Shown: positions 30,774-53,974 of the stretch, in pieces | Layout: each line of letters starts with the position of its first letter | Numbering within the stretch: position 1 is the stretch's first letter | Assembly: GCA_944325065.1 (NCBI GenBank) | Contig: CALUYS010000001.1 | Coordinates: 99,439-163,438, forward strand | DNA length: 64,000 nucleotides | Direction of reading: 5' to 3' | Source: Candidatus Gastranaerophilales bacterium | GTDB taxonomy: Bacteria > Cyanobacteriota > Vampirovibrionia > Gastranaerophilales > Gastranaerophilaceae | Notes under the pieces: generated by a model | The model's input: only the letters and a program-made list of their open reading frames with translations | Told to the model about the DNA's origin: nothing | Database searches by the model: none | Program-made: the position numbers and the translations under genes

Positions 30774-31763
30774 ATGAACAAAAATTTTAGTGCTAAATTT
30801 TTAGTATGTTTTATTATACTTTTAAATTTTACGCATATAAATGCTAGTGCAAAAAATATAAATAATATAAAAAATTTTCAAATACAAAATAAAAATCTAA
30901 AATTGATAAATAATAATTCTCAAATTAGCAATCAATTGACACAACTTGAAAATAAAATATTAAAATCAACATATACCTTTGATCCTTTAGAAAAACGTCT
31001 TGATAGGCTTGAGCTTGAGGTATTTGGTGATACAAATTCAGATTATGAATATGAACAACGTTTATCTAAATTAATATCTTCAACAGGATTTAACTATAAT
31101 ACAAATTTAAATGATAGCTTAATACCAAAAAATAATGAAAATCAATACAATCAAAATTATGAAAAAGAAGATTCAAGTGTTTCCTATCCTATGGTTGATA
31201 CTTTAGAAAAAGAGGTTTTTAACCGTTCTTTTTCAAATGATGATATATATAATAGGCTAACGCGACTTGAAAAAGAAGTTTACAAAAAGACATCAGAAAA
31301 TTTATCATTATCAGATAGAATTGATACATTAAAAGGTTCAATTCTAAACCAAAATCCTGTATATTCATATAATGATAATAATGATGAAATTTATTATTCA
31401 AATGATAGTGATGATGTACATATTCCAAGATATTATGGGGAACAGAATTCATTGCCTTATAAAGTACAACAAGATAATAATGACAGTTCGATTGATCCAT
31501 ATCTTACACAACTTGAAGATAAGATTTTAAAATCAAATTTTTCAAATGAGTCGGTTGATATAAGATTAAGTCGACTTGAAAATAAAATGTTCAATAAAAG
31601 TTTTTCATCTGATAGTGATGTTGAAAGACTTGATAGGCTGATGGCAGTAAGTGAAGCTAAAAATAATGCAAGCATTTTTGATAACAATAAAATTATGCGT
31701 GGTTTAAGTGCTGGTGTTCAAATAGGCGGGATTATTTTAATGATTTTAGCTATGATTCTTTAG
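30774..31763 (+). CDS. Secreted LE-repeat protein with C-terminal membrane helix
   Basis: 329 aa with a signal peptide (about 1-25, ending INASA) and a repeated motif of the form LExxVFxxxFxxDxxxxRLxRLE. Clear units are LENKILKSTYTFDPLEKRLD, then LEKEVFNRSFSNDDIYNRLT, then LEDKILKSNFSNESVDIRLS followed by LENKMFNKSFSSDSDVERLD. Asn/Tyr/Asp-rich linkers separate them. A hydrophobic helix at about 309-328 closes the protein. Similar repeats are known to me from cyanobacterial-lineage envelope proteins of unknown function. Its stop codon interlocks with that of the convergent pseudopilin copy A. Confidence 0.72.
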   Translation: MNKNFSAKFLVCFIILLNFTHINASAKNINNIKNFQIQNKNLKLINNNSQISNQLTQLENKILKSTYTFDPLEKRLDRLELEVFGDTNSDYEYEQRLSKLISSTGFNYNTNLNDSLIPKNNENQYNQNYEKEDSSVSYPMVDTLEKEVFNRSFSNDDIYNRLTRLEKEVYKKTSENLSLSDRIDTLKGSILNQNPVYSYNDNNDEIYYSNDSDDVHIPRYYGEQNSLPYKVQQDNNDSSIDPYLTQLEDKILKSNFSNESVDIRLSRLENKMFNKSFSSDSDVERLDRLMAVSEAKNNASIFDNNKIMRGLSAGVQIGGIILMILAMIL

Positions 31764-33641
31764 AACCAACTGCTTGAACTTGGTTTAATTGGACGAATGA
31801 TACAGCCAAAATGATTATTACAAACTTCTATTTTTGAAAATTCTGTAACAATATTGTTGTCTTCATCCTTACAGCCACAATATTGTGAAAATTTATCGCC
31901 TGTATATTTCATAGCTTCACAAAAATTAAGTGGTTTATCATTTACTTTCTCTATTTTAAATGTTTGAGGATCTCTTGTTATTACATCAAATTTTAATGGT
32001 GTATTTTGATTATTTGCCAAATATCCAACAGGTATTATTTTATTTCCAAATTGCTCAAAAACAAAAATATTTTTATTCATTTCTCCTTCGCTAAAAGGAG
32101 TATCAATTGATGCATAAATGAAATGAGCTGAAGGTTTATTTACACTACCTGAATATTTAAATTGACTCACTTTTATAGGTCCCTCCATTTCTGAAGAAGT
32201 ACTGGAAATTTCATCTATTGTTAAAAAAAAGTCTTTCCATTTTGTATAATAAGCTTTATAATAATCATTAAAAACAATCTCCATATTTACAGTGCCTGAT
32301 ACTCCACCTAACCCTACACTATAAGATTTATTATGTATATTACTATAGATGTTATACGCATATGTTTTGTGTTCTTCACATGTAAAATGTTTGTTTTTTT
32401 CATTATAACCACTACAATAATCTTCTATATAATTTTCATAAACGCCAGATGCATATCCGAAGTTTTTTTTATATCGCATTTTAAGCATACATCCATGTTT
32501 ATTATCTTTAGTATTTGTATAGTCTGAATATAAAATAGAGTATGTGACTGTCTTGCCATTTGTTTTCTTATTTGACCAGTAACATTCATGTTTTTCTTTT
32601 TTTGATATATCTATATCGTCAACAACTGGACAAATCGCATCTTGGTTATAAGTTGTTGTATAATCATTTTGAATGTTATATATTAATGTGCCTTTAGCTG
32701 AATCTGGTAATTCATAATTCATTCTGATTAATTTTAAATTTATATTATTTAAGGTTCTTAATGTTGGTGATAATGTACTAAAGTTAATCCCTTCATCTAT
32801 ATTAAAACTAGTGTTTGATGAACCAGGTTCTGTTTTTTCTTTAAGGATAGCCTCAGCATTTTGGCTTAATTCAACTGTTTCTTTGTTTGTATCAATTTTT
32901 ATATCAGCATTGCTTGCATTGTCGTTAACCGATACGATTAAATCAGTATTTTCTACACCATCAATTTTAAGTATAGATTGTGTGCCAACATATTTATACA
33001 ATTGTTCTACTTTTTGATTTGTAATCAAATTTAAATATGTTGCATTTGGAGTATAATAACAAGTTTGTCTATCTATTGAATTGGTTATGCTACTACATAA
33101 TGGCGTTTTATTTGTATCATAATCACTTGGTCTTACTGGAGTATATGTAATATTGGGTGTTCCATCATCATTAACATTATAGGAAAAATCTCGTTTTAAA
33201 TTGTTTTGTATTAATACATTAATATTTTTATAAGCTACATCTTCATTTAATGTTACACTTTGTTCCATATCTTTAGCTTTACAATCAACATCCCCAACTA
33301 TATTTATATCTTTTGAAAAAAATTCACAATATTCATGTGCAGTCATATCTGAAAAGATTTCTTCAATTGTTTTGCCTGTGTTTTCTGGATTATTTGCTAT
33401 TTTTTTTGTTAATAATTTACTTTCATTTTCTAAGTTTTTGTACAAATAATAGACATACATTGGAACTTTTTTTTCTAAATTATGCTGAATAACTTTTGTT
33501 GTTACAATATACAAAAAACTTATTAAGACCATAACAAGTATTACCTCAACAAAAGTAAACCCATTTTCTCTTTTTATATCAAGCTTATTCGTCTTATTTA
33601 TTATCGGGGGGGGGTAAATGTTTAAATTTATAAATATTCAC
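31760..33641 (-). CDS. Giant type IV pseudopilin copy A, frame-shifted by a C9 tract (predicted OFF)
   Basis: The open frame runs from the stop at 31760 to about 33614, but its only plausible start is GTG 33641 (GGAG 10 bases upstream), which is in another frame. Between them lies C9 (33606-33614 on the plus strand as G9). With 9 C the product stops after 15 codons; 8 or 11 C would join GTG to the pilin frame. The joined protein would have a prepilin site ENG-FTFVEVILVM (Glu5 present), a roughly 560-aa Cys-containing body and a C-terminal domain shared with copy B (FGNKIIPVGYLAN, CGCKD, HFGCIIRP). An internal ATG at 33532 lies inside the membrane helix and would skip processing. Confidence 0.75.
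33606..33614. repeat. G9/C9 homopolymer in pseudopilin copy A
   Basis: Nine G on the plus strand, nine C on the coding strand, between the GTG start and the prepilin cleavage site. Length 9 places the pilin body out of frame. Long G/C runs are exceptional in this AT-rich sequence; the only other one is in the paralogue at 48090-48102. Confidence 0.9.
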
Positions 33642-33669
33642 GTATTTTAAACTCCAATTTTTTTTACTT

Positions 33670-33698
33670 ATACTATCATTTTTTATATAAATTGGCAA
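33670..33698 (-). promoter_or_regulatory. Promoter of pseudopilin copy A
   Basis: On the minus strand TTGCCA (33698-33693) and TAGTAT (33675-33670) with a 17-base spacer. The same arrangement, TTGCCA-17-TATTAT, precedes copy B. The region from promoter to GGAGTTTAAAA is alignable between the two copies. Confidence 0.6.
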
Positions 33699-33729: not shown

Positions 33730-34578
33730 ATCGCACCAACTATCACTTAAGAAGAAGTAGAACAGTAATAAGAAAGCAGATAATAAAGATGAAACAATTT
33801 TAGAACATTTATTTTCTAGGAAATGAGATAAAATAATAATACTTTAAGGCAAATTATTTCCAATATAAAAATAACAAAAAAGCAATGATTAATTCTAAAT
33901 AGCATATCAAAAGAATTGCATAAAAAAAAGAAACCATATCTATCATTACGTTGGGTATAAACTTAAAATATGGTTATTTCCTAATAAGAAAATTATGGCA
34001 TTTATGATTAAAACCTCCAAATGTAAAACAAAAAAGAATACTGGGAAGATTTATATATCGTTGAACAGGAAAGAATAACTCAAATATATATTTAAGAATA
34101 AAAGAAACAAATAATCAATTTGTTTCACAGTAATGGTTGATAGATTTAGTTCGTCAAATTATTATTTAAAAAAAACGGTCTCAAGAACATCTAACATGAC
34201 CTCTGCATCGATTATTAGAGCTATGAAGCCGTATCGAAATACAGCTAAAAGTATAACATATGATAATGGATGTGAGTTCTCTAAAACTAAAAAAATTAAC
34301 AAAACGCTTAACATTAAATCATATTTTTATAAGCCATATGCAAGCTATGAAAAAGGAACAGTGGAAAATATAAATGGACTAATTAGAAGGTTCTTTCCAA
34401 AAGGAACAAACTTTGATACAATAACAGAGGAAGAAATCGTGTATGTCGAAAATTGGATTAACAATAGACCGATGAAAATTCTTAAGTATATTCCATTTGA
34501 ACAACCTTTTTAAACTTCATAGTGTTGCGATTGATTCTTGAATTCACCTTTTATTTTTTGTAAAGATTTGTAACAATT
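33730..34578 (+). mobile_element. Decayed IS30-family copy 3 (transposase pseudogene 34133-34513)
   Basis: The frame 34133-34513 encodes the IS30 catalytic domain with all three acidic residues visible: Asp in VDRFSSSN, Asp in ITYDNGCEF and Glu in KGTVENINGLIRRFFPKG. It continues to YVENWINNRPMK. One extra base before a T5 run shifts the last residues (compare TPEQVFKLHN in copy 1) and creates an early stop. Upstream, 33900-34130 holds broken N-terminal remnants with stops in every frame. The terminal sequence TTTTTTGTAAAGATTTGTAAC is at 34554-34574. The stretch 33730-33900 is otherwise uninformative. Confidence 0.75.
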
Positions 34579-41230: not shown

Positions 41231-41830
41231 TTAATTCAATTTACCACCAAGTAAATAATAAAATGAACAGAATACACCACTTGATGATTTATTGCAATCT
41301 GATGCTAATAACTTATTACTTAAATTAGTACCAAATGCTTCAATCCTATCAATATAAACATTTACACCAAAGACATCTTTCCCAAATTTATTTGGTCCCA
41401 TTTCTCCATTAACATCAAAAATTAAAATACCACAAGTTTCACCGATTTTGCATTTATCTGCCATTTTAACACCCATAATAGAACTATCTTCTAAAAAATA
41501 AAATTTATCGACATAATATCGTGAATTATCTTTGACACTTTTACCGTTTAAAAATGAATAAGAATACTTACTTAATATAGGATCATCAAGACGTGTTTTA
41601 TCAATATTTAAATAATTTGGTAATAATTTAATATCAAAATCATTACGATGATTTAAAGAATAAACACTAAAAGAATACTTAACTTCTTCAAAAATACGTT
41701 CCCATTTCGTAATAAGATGAGCTTCCTTTGTATTGGAAAAAGAAAACGGAAGAACAATAGCCATAATTATAAGTATTATAAACACTAACAAACTTATTTC
41801 AATTAAAGTAAAACCTTTTTTTATTTTCAT
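41231..41830 (-). CDS. Type IV pilin-like / pseudopilin protein
   Basis: 199 aa with a short prepilin leader MKIKKG-FTLIEISLLVFI (Glu5 of the mature protein present) and a single N-terminal helix, then a globular domain. The motif CGILIFDVNGEMGPNKFGKD near residue 134 and the paired Cys residues are the pattern of Vampirovibrionia pilins known to me. It would be processed by PilD and assembled in a type IV pilus or type II-like system. Compared with copies A and B it is short and lacks their C-terminal domain and homopolymer tract. Confidence 0.85.
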   Translation of the reverse strand: MKIKKGFTLIEISLLVFIILIIMAIVLPFSFSNTKEAHLITKWERIFEEVKYSFSVYSLNHRNDFDIKLLPNYLNIDKTRLDDPILSKYSYSFLNGKSVKDNSRYYVDKFYFLEDSSIMGVKMADKCKIGETCGILIFDVNGEMGPNKFGKDVFGVNVYIDRIEAFGTNLSNKLLASDCNKSSSGVFCSFYYLLGGKLN

Positions 41831-43651: not shown

Positions 43652-45181
43652 TTATTTTGCTATTTCAGTTGTTCTTAATTCTCTCACAACAGTAACTCTA
43701 ATTTGACCTGGATAATCAAGTTCTTCTTCAATACGCTTAGCTATATCACGAGCAAGTTTTGATGCAGCAATATCATCAAATTTTTCAGGTTCAACAACAA
43801 CTCTCACTTCACGCCCTGCCTGAACAGCATATGACTGTTTTATACCTTCATAACTTTGAGCAATTTCTTCAAGTTTTTTCAGTCGTTTTACATATATTTC
43901 CAAAGTATCTCGACGAGAACCTGGTCTTCCTGCTGATATTGTATCAGCTAATTTAACTAAGACAGCTTCAATTGAATTTGCAACTACATCATCATGATGT
44001 GCTTCAATAGCATGAATTATTTCATTCGATTCACCAAATCTACGGGCTAATTCAACACCCAATTCGATATGAGTACCTTCTTGAGTTTGATCAACTGCTT
44101 TTCCAATATCGTGCAATAAACCTGCTCGTTTAGCAACATTAATATTAGCCCCAAGTTCCTTAGCTAACATACCTGCAATATGACCAACTTCAAGTGAATG
44201 AATAAGAACATTTTGTCCATAACTTGTACGATAATATAATCGACCCAAATTTTTTATAAGCTCACGATGAAGATTCATAATACCCATATCCATTGCAGCC
44301 TGTTCACCTTCTTTTTTTATTTTGGCTTCAATTTCTTGCTTAGCTCGCTCAACCATATCTTCAATACGAACAGGATGAATCCGACCATCTGCAATAAGTT
44401 TTTCTAATGCAACTTTTGCTATCTCTCGACGCACAGGGTCAAATGATGATAAAACAACAGCTTCAGGAGTATCATCAATTATCAAATCAACTCCAGTTAA
44501 TGTTTCCAAAGCACGTATATTTCGACCTTCTCGACCTATAATTCGTCCTTTCATTTCATCAGATGGTAAACTTACAACAGATACCGTTGATTCTACAACT
44601 TGATCAATAACCACACGTTGCATTGTATTTGTCAAAATCTCCCTGGCAATTTGATCTGATGATTCTTTAATTTTTATTTCATTTTCCTTTATCAATTGTA
44701 GCTGTTCTTGTTTCAGATCTTGTTTTAATTGCTCAAGAAGCATATTTTTAGCTTCGTCGCAAGAAATATTAGCTATACGTTCAAGCTCTCTAATTTGTTT
44801 TTCAACAAGTTCTGCTAACATATCTTCTTTTTCAACAAGTTCATCATTTTTTTTCTGCAACTGTGATTCTTTTTCAAGATTCTCCTGAATTTTATTCTCA
44901 AGATTTTCTTCTTTTAAACTTAACTTCGTTTCAAGTTTCGAAAGTTCCTGTCTTTTTTCACGCAATTGCTCATTTTGCTTTTCTCGTTCATTATTTAAAG
45001 ATTCTTTTGCAACAATCATTGCTTCTTTTCGCAATAATTTTTCTTTTTCAGCTTCATCAATTTTTGCTTGCTCACGTTCAAGCTGTATTTTTTTATATTT
45101 AGAATTAAGCTGTGAGTTATATATGATTAAACCAACAGTTAGAATTATTAATATAATTATTAAAATATTTAACCAAACTAT
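43652..45181 (-). CDS. rny: Ribonuclease Y, start codon uncertain
   Basis: Membrane-anchored endoribonuclease that initiates mRNA decay. The order is: membrane helix ([19 protein letters not shown]), coiled coil, KH domain ([19 protein letters not shown]) and HD domain ([10 protein letters not shown]), ending [11 protein letters not shown]. The first ATG/GTG/TTG in frame is TTG 45034, which would remove the anchor. Upstream the frame stays open to about 45200 and encodes the anchor. I extended to ATA 45181, giving 509 aa, close to the family length of 510-520. A TATAAT lies at 45220-45215. A rare start codon or a base error could explain it. Confidence 0.85.
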
Positions 45182-45300
45182 TTTCCTATACCCCGTTCCA
45201 CGCTATATACAAAAATTATACATGTCTTTTTACATATATAATCTACTAGTATAATTTTATCATATAACTTACATATTTAACAAGAGGGTAATTAAAAAGT

Positions 45301-46131
45301 TTATTTATTTTCCATAAATTTTGTTAATTTTTTATACTTTTTCTGATGATAAATATTATATCCACAATCTTTCATTATTTCATATGCTTGTTGTTTAGTT
45401 TTCCCGTTATTTTTCATTTGATATATTGCACTCATTACACCTGTTCTATCAATACCGCTTTTACAATGTATAAATATTGAACCGTTTATTTTATTTTTAT
45501 TAATTATTTCTTGAAATTTATTATATTTTTTAACATCAGGAATATCACCTGATTCCATTGGAAAATTAATATATTTAATTCCATTTTTTTCAAATATTTC
45601 TTTTTCTAAATCCATGTCTTCTTTTGAAGAACTTTTGCTATTGCGAAAATCAATAACAAGTTTTATATTTTTATCTTTAAATTCTTTAATAACATCATCA
45701 TTCTTATAATCAGGTTTAGCTCCTCGATATAAGTATTTATTTTCATTTTTATTAAGTTTAGCCACTGTGTGAAAATTTGATATATTTGGACTTTCAGTCA
45801 ATTGAATAAATCTTGTAGCTCTCATTGTTAAAAAACCAGCAAAAAATAATATTCCACCAATAAAAGCACCTTTCATAAAATTGCATATTCGTTCCTTATT
45901 TGTTAAATACCAATTTGGAAAACTAAATTTATTATTTTTATTATTTGAACTATATAAATTGTTATTTAATATAGGTTGATTTGATATATAAGTTGATGAA
46001 ACAGGTACTAAATTTGTTTCTCTTATAGTATTTCCATTTTGCAAATATGGATTATAATAGGGGTTATTAAATACCTGATCTGTTGTATATGGAATTAAAT
46101 ATGGAGTATTATTAGTATAATAACTTACCAT
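45301..46131 (-). CDS. Membrane-anchored tyrosine/dual-specificity phosphatase
   Basis: 276 aa. Residues 1-85 are Asn/Tyr/Pro-rich and polar, a membrane helix spans about 87-104, and the catalytic domain follows. The phosphatase loop is HCKSGIDRTGV with Cys223 and Arg229; the general-acid loop may be the ESGDIPD segment near 193-199. The domain resembles the DSP/PTEN-like bacterial family acting on phosphotyrosine, phosphoinositide or nucleotide substrates. Its orientation (catalytic side cytoplasmic or periplasmic) cannot be fixed. It lies 96 bases from pseudopilin copy B on the same strand. Confidence 0.82.
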   Translation of the reverse strand: MVSYYTNNTPYLIPYTTDQVFNNPYYNPYLQNGNTIRETNLVPVSSTYISNQPILNNNLYSSNNKNNKFSFPNWYLTNKERICNFMKGAFIGGILFFAGFLTMRATRFIQLTESPNISNFHTVAKLNKNENKYLYRGAKPDYKNDDVIKEFKDKNIKLVIDFRNSKSSSKEDMDLEKEIFEKNGIKYINFPMESGDIPDVKKYNKFQEIINKNKINGSIFIHCKSGIDRTGVMSAIYQMKNNGKTKQQAYEIMKDCGYNIYHQKKYKKLTKFMENK

Positions 46132-46227
46132 TTTTATATATTTCTACTTTCTTATACACCTATATACAATATAAAAAAATATAAAATAAAATAATTGATA
46201 TTATATTAAGTTTTATTACTTTATATT

Positions 46228-48126
46228 TTAAAACCTTCCGCTTAAACCTGGTTTCACAGGGCGGATTATGCAGCCGAAATGGTTATTACATTGTTCATTT
46301 TTTGTTGAATATTGTGTAACAACATTATTACTTCCATCTTTGCATCCGCAATATTGTGAAAATTCTTCTCCTGTATAACTCATTGCTTCACAAAATGTAA
46401 GCGGTCGTTTTTCTGAACCATTATAATAATTAACCTTTTCTATCTTGAATGTTTGTGGATTGCGGGTTATTACGTCGAATTTCAAAGGGCTATTTGCGTT
46501 GTTTGCCAAATATCCAACAGGAATGATTTTGTTGCCAAATTGCTCAAAAACAAAAATATTTTTGTTCATTTCACCTTTGTCAAACGGTGTGTCGATTGAA
46601 GCATAGATAAAGTGGGCAAGGTAATTATTTGTATTAGAAGTATCCTCTATTGTTTTTTCAATGAATCCTTCATATGTTTCTTGTGAATCAATAGCTTCTT
46701 TTGTGGCGGTTGTAAATATACCTTTATAATGTTTATTGAAAAAATTGTTCCATTTGGTATAATAACCTTCATGATCAAAACTTTGAGAGTCAGAATTAAG
46801 TATTGTAGTTCCTCCATTTAGTTGAACATTGATGTAAAGAAGAGCTATATTTGAAGCTGGAGAATCCGCATTACAATAATCTAACGCCGTTTGATTTTGA
46901 TTATCATAAGTACTACAATAACTACCACTAGTATTATTATACCAAATTTTTTTCTCATTATACTTAGTAAAATCAGTTTCTTTAAATTTTGACATTTCTT
47001 CTGCATGTTTTATATAACCGCTACAGTTTTCATTAATTTGGGGTATATTTTTAACTAGTCCATATCGTGCAGCTTCTGCAATCCATAGCCCATCTCCTAC
47101 TTGTGACGTTGGTTTTAAAAATCCTGAAATTCTTATACAATAAAAAGAATAAGGTTCACGTTTATACTCTATTTTGCTATTAATTCCATACAAGTCCCCT
47201 GTTAAATTGTATTTTGAAAAAGTGATATTACAAGTTAGTATATTTGATGTATTAAATTCTGCTCGTGAAATTTGAGGACATATAGCATCCTGATGAACAT
47301 TTGTAAATAGGTTATACTTAAAAGTATATTTACTGCTTGCGGGTTTTAAAGTAACAAACTTCAAATGAATGTTGTTTGTTGTTTTTAAAACATCATTTAT
47401 ATTTTGTGGCTTTTTATCAATATCAAATATAACTTCATCTTCTTGAGTTTTTTCATGTTTTTCGAAAGAGCAAGTATATGCATGAGGAGATAAAGTATTA
47501 TCTTTTAATAAATTATTGATTTTTATTGTTGGTTGAGCATTGCATGTAAATTCTGTAGTAGAAGAATCTACATTGTTATCACCACAATTGTTTGATGTCG
47601 TTTGATATTCTGGAGAAAAAGTCTCACTATAGACTCCATCATTATTTACATTAAATTTGTATGTCCTTTTACAAGCATAATCAGTTTGCTCATTATTTGA
47701 AGTTGTTATTTCTTGATTTAAGGAACTCTTTTCACAACTAGACTCACCAATTAAATTAACATCTTCTGCAAATGTTTCACAATAACTTTTCGCATCTAAG
47801 CCTTTGAGAACTTCTTCTATTGTTTTATTACCAGTACTTGTGCCACTTCCACTTGAAGAACCAGCATCACCTTCGGTGCTATTAGCTTGGTCGATTAATT
47901 TTTTTTCTAATAATTTACCTTCAGTATCTAAATTTTTGTATAAATTATATACATATAATGGCACTTTTTTTTCAAGATTGTGTTGAATAACTTTTGTTGT
48001 CACAAGATATAAAAAACTTATTAATGTCATAACTAATATTACTTCAACAAAAGTAAAGGCTTTTTCCCCTTTATTTAAAGTACTTTTAGCCCCCCCCCCC
48101 CCGAGATTTTTCAAATTATTCAACAT
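46228..48126 (-). CDS. Giant type IV pseudopilin copy B, in frame through a G13 tract (predicted ON)
   Basis: 632 aa. The leader has MLNNLKNL, then four glycines encoded by the G13 run (which also supplies the first base of the next codon), then KGEKA-FTFVEVILVM with Glu5 for prepilin processing. One N-terminal helix follows, then a Ser/Gly linker (SSSGSGTSTG), a long Cys-rich body and a C-terminal domain nearly identical in pattern to copy A (FGNKIIPVGYLAN, FDVITRNPQTFKIEKV, CGCKDG, HFGCIIRPVKP). ATG 48126 has GGAG 8 bases upstream. The body is about three times the size of ordinary minor pilins, so a pilus-tip adhesin is plausible. Confidence 0.85.
   Translation of the reverse strand: MLNNLKNLGGGGAKSTLNKGEKAFTFVEVILVMTLISFLYLVTTKVIQHNLEKKVPLYVYNLYKNLDTEGKLLEKKLIDQANSTEGDAGSSSGSGTSTGNKTIEEVLKGLDAKSYCETFAEDVNLIGESSCEKSSLNQEITTSNNEQTDYACKRTYKFNVNNDGVYSETFSPEYQTTSNNCGDNNVDSSTTEFTCNAQPTIKINNLLKDNTLSPHAYTCSFEKHEKTQEDEVIFDIDKKPQNINDVLKTTNNIHLKFVTLKPASSKYTFKYNLFTNVHQDAICPQISRAEFNTSNILTCNITFSKYNLTGDLYGINSKIEYKREPYSFYCIRISGFLKPTSQVGDGLWIAEAARYGLVKNIPQINENCSGYIKHAEEMSKFKETDFTKYNEKKIWYNNTSGSYCSTYDNQNQTALDYCNADSPASNIALLYINVQLNGGTTILNSDSQSFDHEGYYTKWNNFFNKHYKGIFTTATKEAIDSQETYEGFIEKTIEDTSNTNNYLAHFIYASIDTPFDKGEMNKNIFVFEQFGNKIIPVGYLANNANSPLKFDVITRNPQTFKIEKVNYYNGSEKRPLTFCEAMSYTGEEFSQYCGCKDGSNNVVTQYSTKNEQCNNHFGCIIRPVKPGLSGRF
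48090..48102. repeat. C13/G13 homopolymer in pseudopilin copy B
   Basis: Thirteen C on the plus strand, thirteen G on the coding strand, located between start codon and prepilin cleavage site. Length 13 keeps the gene in frame; loss or gain of one or two bases would silence it. Confidence 0.92.
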
Positions 48127-48158
48127 TTTTTAAACTCCATAATTTTATACTCAAATTA

Positions 48159-48187
48159 ATAATAAATGATTTTAGTTAATTTGGCAA
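48159..48187 (-). promoter_or_regulatory. Promoter of pseudopilin copy B
   Basis: On the minus strand TTGCCA (48187-48182) and TATTAT (48164-48159) with a 17-base spacer, matching the promoter of copy A in both sequence and spacing to the start. Confidence 0.6.
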
Positions 48188-53848: not shown

Positions 53849-53974
53849 TTATTGTATACTTATATATAAAAAGAATATGTTGATATAATAAAGAATATAA
53901 ATATACATCAGAAGTTTAATAATAATTTTGCCCCCACAATCAATCCTGTTAAACCAAGTTCTGTTAGATTATAA

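Follow-up and report, generated by a model that had tools for sequence, protein, structure and literature searches.

The copy A locus

The stretch of DNA analysed here (the window; 64,000 nucleotides, in which all positions are given) comes from a gut Candidatus Gastranaerophilales bacterium whose genome assembly comprises 1.86 Mb in 37 contigs. On its minus strand lies a prepilin-like gene, copy A, that reads in the order of a GGAG ribosome-binding site (33652–33655, within a GGAGTTT motif), 10 bases, a GTG start codon (33639–33641, assigned from the sequence and frame arithmetic), eight more codons, a run of nine C residues (33606–33614, G9 on the plus strand) and a long open frame. This frame (31760–33604) encodes the prepilin body and is stop-free over 614 codons, yet in the assembly it is out of frame with the GTG; translation from the GTG through nine C gives VNIYKFKHLPPPDNK and then a stop, 15 codons in all. 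No ATG, GTG or TTG occurs in the pilin frame (31760–33604) until position 33532, where an ATG, the first usable start, falls within the hydrophobic helix. We recomputed the product for each tract length from 6 to 14. Full-length proteins result at C8 (626 aa), C11 (627 aa) and C14 (628 aa), the ON lengths of the proposed switch, and C6, C7, C10, C12 and C13, like the C9 of the assembly, are OFF, with a stop within 16 codons. An initial annotation of this DNA had described the 15-codon product at nine C, the fusion of start and pilin at eight or eleven C, and an open pilin frame with a prepilin site and no start other than the ATG within the helix. Each of these holds, with C14 as a further ON length from frame arithmetic, and the positions that the annotation gave for the tract and GTG, along with the other coordinates checked, are correct.

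The sequence criterion for a type IV pilin or pseudopilin is a prepilin site, in which F follows G or A and position +5 is E, together with a hydrophobic N-terminal helix. Copy A satisfies it, with GFTFVEVILVMVLISFLYIVTT as the sequence evidence: its prepilin site at about 33562 reads GFTFVEV and there is a hydrophobic helix. The Pfam N_methyl model falls just short (E 8e-4, 19.3 bits against a cut-off of 21.2), and TIGR02532 matches paralogue C above its cut-off. A prepilin peptidase was found, above cut-off, in Candidatus Gastranaerophilales bacterium BRZ_DS bin68 (hereafter G001), a metagenome-assembled genome of a sister species in the same genus. Neither this peptidase nor the adjacent phosphoglycerate mutase-like gene of G001 was found in the window's assembly (98.4% complete); since the neighbouring gene is missing there too, the absence of the peptidase suggests an assembly gap, which is likely though not proven. 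An AlphaFold prediction for copy B (a paralogue described below) and five relatives has a long N-terminal helix followed mostly by strands in the copy B model, at a mean pLDDT of 42.7 that is too poor to use.

The chance of the copy A frame staying open over 614 codons is ~2e-22, and comparison with the paralogues gives dN/dS of 0.04–0.35 (only pairs with unsaturated dS). At the level of sequence comparison these values show purifying selection on copy A, although comparing paralogues leaves room for copy A alone having been lost very recently. Annotation pipelines will label such pilins pseudogenes or begin them within the membrane helix, the latter being the case in a mechanical open reading frame call for copy A, which begins at the ATG at 33532.

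Upstream of the ribosome-binding site on the minus strand is a promoter-like site, TTGCCA-17-TAGTAT with an extended TG (33670–33698). It is weak, with 9/12 matches, and the region of copy A holds 6 such sites where shuffled sequences lead one to expect 6.9. TTGCCA also occurs upstream of copy B. With so few matches and no excess over shuffles, the intact promoter claimed by the initial annotation does not rise above chance and remains unproven. Directly upstream of copy A, and divergent from it, a 126-aa open reading frame on the plus strand (34133–34513) resembles by eye the end of an IS transposase, without Pfam support.

Paralogous pilin genes and their leader tracts

Only twice in the window, whose GC content is 26%, is G or C repeated six or more times in a row: in the C9 of copy A and in a G13 at 48090–48102. 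A Markov model of the window puts the expected number of runs of 8, for G as for C, below 0.2 per window. Each of the two long runs separates a start codon from the prepilin site in one of two paralogous pilin genes, and it is this placement within two paralogous leaders that leads us to reject chance. The G13 belongs to copy B (46228–48126, minus strand), whose ATG at 48126 is followed by seven more codons, the tract and, at about 48060, a prepilin site. The gene is in frame (ON) and encodes 632 aa; its tract is ON at 10, 13 and 16 and OFF at 11, 12, 14 and 15.

The genome has six paralogues, which align with a near-constant N-terminal part, a very variable middle and a near-constant C-terminus of ~110 residues with conserved cysteines. 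Live tracts are present in three of the six: A (C9, OFF), B (G13, ON) and C (L026; G10, OFF). In E (L059) the tract has decayed to GGAGGGGG and the gene is OFF; D (L058) and F (L060) are ON and lack a tract. Leaders come in two types, one with GTG and a C tract, the other with an ATG-TTG-AAT-AAT-like start and a G tract, and GGAGTTT is the ribosome-binding region common to all tract-bearing leaders of the family. Elsewhere in the window, at 41231–41830 on the minus strand, there is a further prepilin-like gene (MKIKKGFTLIEIS) that lacks a tract and apparently lies outside this large family. Several other G/C tracts of the source genome are found between genes or in repeats.

Related genomes and other genera

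G001 carries four complete pilins and several that are cut by contig ends. One has a C12 tract in an A-type leader, VSFFNFKHLAPPP, that resembles the copy A leader, VNIYKFKHLPPP, and is ON (L063). Genes with G11 (L062) and G10 (L065) are OFF; L068 and L070, which carry G8-A-G4 and G11-A-G4, are both ON, as are three genes without a tract (L068 plus strand, L061 and L064). Positional orthologues were assigned by comparing flanks. The orthologue of C (L065/L071) has G10 and is OFF in both genomes, that of E (L062) has G11 where the tract of E has decayed, and those of D and F (L061 and L064) lack a tract in either species. The initial annotation had named a non-repetitive sequence at this position in related genomes as grounds for refutation. 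One A-type GTG leader in G001 without a tract (L068) does fit that description; other G001 pilins, the A-type gene with C12 among them, carry tracts. Loss of the tract in some members is normal for phase-variable families.

The flanks of copy B (window 44231–48167) adjoin two different pilins in G001: the rpsG side (contig C35) meets a no-tract leader and the phosphatase side (contig C3) the C12 leader. As judged from gene order alone, this arrangement suggests rearrangement by recombination between pilin copies. At the place corresponding to window 53890–53945, G001 has an extra pilin, with its N-terminus at the start of contig C35 and its C-terminus at the start of contig C6; a pilin copy has thus been gained or lost at an intergenic site. 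Taken together, the split flanks and the extra copy mark the pilin loci as sites of rearrangement between copies.

We also searched 383 genomes of the family for eight G or C followed within 4–63 bases by a prepilin site. Outside the genus this pattern identified one gene in each of four genomes from four genera, with tracts of G12 (ON; G120), G11 (OFF; G347), C9 (OFF; G289) and C9 (OFF; G151); a reversed control pattern matched 1 of the 383 genomes. The tract lies between the ATG and the prepilin site in all four genes, and the encoded pilins are of ordinary size (222–330 aa in the searched frames), three of them passing the Pfam N_methyl cut-off and the fourth falling below it. Because these proteins, by their size, are not full-length relatives of copy A, we infer that the start–tract–prepilin layout may have arisen more than once. 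The comparison of tract lengths across related genomes that the initial annotation had proposed supports its reading: the same layout occurs with different lengths and in both phases, and recurs in four other genera. A protein search beyond the genus gave only weak matches, limited to the N-terminal part. Among viral contigs we found no relatives and no match to the G-type leader; two viral matches to the A-type leader were judged to be chance.

We considered, and rejected, treating every tract as a switch. In G001 many G/C tracts (L104–L107, L113, L115, L117–L129, L132) belong to a hairpin repeat found between genes, TATGGGGGG AGGCTTTGCCT CCCCCC, which is probably a small dispersed element, and several in the source genome are likewise intergenic or in repeats. 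The G001 hairpin-repeat tracts need to be masked before phase-variable genes are counted. Runs of at least nine G occur in 126 of 146 family genomes sampled, a figure that is no count of switches since many of the runs may lie in intergenic hairpin repeats, as they do in G001.

Across the five genera, 5 of 12 tract-bearing prepilin genes are ON and 7 are OFF, which is consistent with a free phase in which one third would be ON. Fixed coding genes are disfavoured because all would be ON, and long-dead genes because their frames would be degraded, yet the frames of the OFF genes remain open, one of them as far as the contig end that cuts it.

Proposed slipped-strand phase variation and known systems

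Copy A has three of the four hallmarks by which a homopolymer contingency locus is recognised: a long, unbroken homopolymer within the 5' coding region, well beyond what chance would give; a change of tract length that toggles between intact and truncated product (lengths 6–14); and both phases with differing lengths among orthologues and paralogues. The fourth would be rapid variation of length within one clone or population. We consider slipped-strand phase variation of a pilin repertoire that includes copy A to be the best explanation, with a probability of about 0.85. Copy A would be one switchable member of a repertoire of large type IV pilin-like surface proteins. Slippage of DNA polymerase on the C tract would gain or lose single C residues; one length in three would place the prepilin body in frame with the GTG and leader peptide (ON), and the remaining two in three would bring a stop within 16 codons (OFF). 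Each leader type, GTG with a C tract or ATG with a G tract, lies upstream of the predicted prepilin peptidase site; because slippage would alter only the part removed on maturation, every ON length would yield the same mature protein. If members switched independently and paralogues exchanged segments, cells would come to differ in their pilin sets. We read the layout, the frames, the family, both phases and the differing tract lengths at related loci directly from the assemblies; slippage in living cells, expression, processing, incorporation into a pilus and any advantage are inferred, and that the proteins act as adhesins or are targeted by immunity or phage is speculative. Each genome is a single consensus, probably from metagenomes, and no variation in length at the level of reads or within a strain is visible in them. 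The contingency-locus reading of the initial annotation is accordingly supported by comparison, through layout, lengths and both phases in orthologues and paralogues and through the four other genera; length variation within a population is not shown.

Besides the lack of visible length variation, several observations count against the slippage explanation: the A-type G001 leader without a tract (L068); the decayed tract of E, so that some members are locked; the prepilin peptidase that was found in G001 but not in the window's assembly; and a promoter no better than chance. The state of E, OFF with its pure tract lost, and the broken frame of copy A in the assembly would also fit a copy A that was killed recently by a fixed homopolymer frameshift, with no return to ON. 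We regard this as unlikely given the 614 intact downstream codons and the low dN/dS against the paralogues. Moreover, relatives with the same layout at other lengths are ON, the A-type C12 gene among them, and 7 of the 12 tract genes are OFF with open or open partial bodies, which could not easily be independent recent deaths.

Nor is it easy to blame the assembly. Homopolymers are error-prone and these genomes are fragmented assemblies, so the true length in copy A might be 8 or 11 and the gene simply ON. OFF states in five genomes from four genera make this very improbable, and a miscount by a single base would leave untouched that long tracts separate start and prepilin site in many paralogues, and that these are real and prone to slippage. 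No more credible, and in our estimate slightly less so, is that programmed ribosomal frameshifting or transcriptional slippage lets a single DNA length yield full protein at a fixed low level. In principle a long homopolymer might act in this way, and leaky expression in the OFF state is possible; related genes differ, however, in length and phase, which a tuned recoding site would not tolerate, and some leaders have C in the tract where others have G. In addition, slippage by RNA polymerase is best known on runs of A or T.

The best descriptions of phase variation by homopolymers come from host-adapted Proteobacteria and Campylobacterota. In the Neisseria opa genes the repeat lies in the signal peptide. 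Like the opa family, with its CTCTT repeats (PMC5953494), the pilins form a multi-copy surface family with variable exposed parts whose members would be switched independently by a repeat near the start; opa, however, has a pentamer repeat and encodes an outer-membrane beta-barrel, whereas here a homopolymer lies in a pilin gene. Neisseria pilC1 and pilC2 are two copies with a poly-G tract (G 9–20) in the reading frame that turns them ON or OFF by frame (PMC5953494): there, too, a G tract lies within a pilus-related surface gene and the frame decides. PilC, however, is pilus-associated and controls retraction without being a pilin, whereas the tracts described here lie within prepilin genes, ahead of the sequence for the prepilin site, and these genes form a multi-copy family in a clade of non-pathogens. 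As in Neisseria pilE/pilS, the genes of this family encode pilins in which some parts are constant and others variable, copies recombine, and C tracts occur in some of them (23 of 607 pilS alleles have simple repeats, including homopolymeric C; PMC5953494). The copies in pilS are incomplete and silent, cassettes that supply a single expression locus; the tract-bearing copies A, B and C are complete genes, each with GGAG, a start codon and a full-length body, and since they have their own start and ribosome-binding site they do not follow the silent-cassette design. Campylobacter jejuni likewise combines a low-GC genome with contingency tracts of ~G8–G11, mainly in reading frames and in a minority intergenic (PMC8355987), as here, but its targets are mainly capsule, lipooligosaccharide and flagellar genes and include no pilin family.

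The slippage mechanism is already known from Neisseria and Campylobacter; novelty lies in the target, a multi-copy family of pilins, in the clade and in the recurrence across genera. No description of such a system emerged when open-licence papers were searched for phase variation, pili or homopolymers in Gastranaerophilales or Melainabacteria. A broader proposal, that pilins of gut Gastranaerophilales combine phase and antigenic variation through complete genes with constant ends, hypervariable middles, a homopolymer switch in each leader and recombination that moves leaders and bodies, and that poly-G/C phase variation is general in the family, remains tentative and, in our judgement, somewhat short of an even chance. 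The bacterium is a gut-dwelling non-photosynthetic relative of cyanobacteria, and the recurrence of this putative switch in several genera of the group, directly in pilins and in genes of quite different size, suggests selection for surface diversity on little-known commensals, whether by host immunity, phage or competitors. Existing gut metagenome reads offer a direct and cheap test of switching.

Beyond the pilins, a gene elsewhere in the source genome (L028, 4938–6086 of contig C18) has a G10 that is in frame, giving 380 aa from the ATG used; a Pfam search with it returned no match. Its counterpart in G001 (L130, near 1501 of contig C22) has a similar leader and an out-of-frame G9, and the two bodies differ strongly. 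On sequence grounds the pair looks like a second phase-variable family and would support a general slippage system in the genus. Separately, a C11 lies near the 3' end of a radical-SAM-like open reading frame (L021:3765–5084), where a change of length would give the protein a different C-terminus, shortly ahead of the gene that follows; by eye the setting is a glycan-type cluster with glycosyltransferase-like, sugar epimerase-like and UDP-sugar dehydrogenase-like open reading frames.
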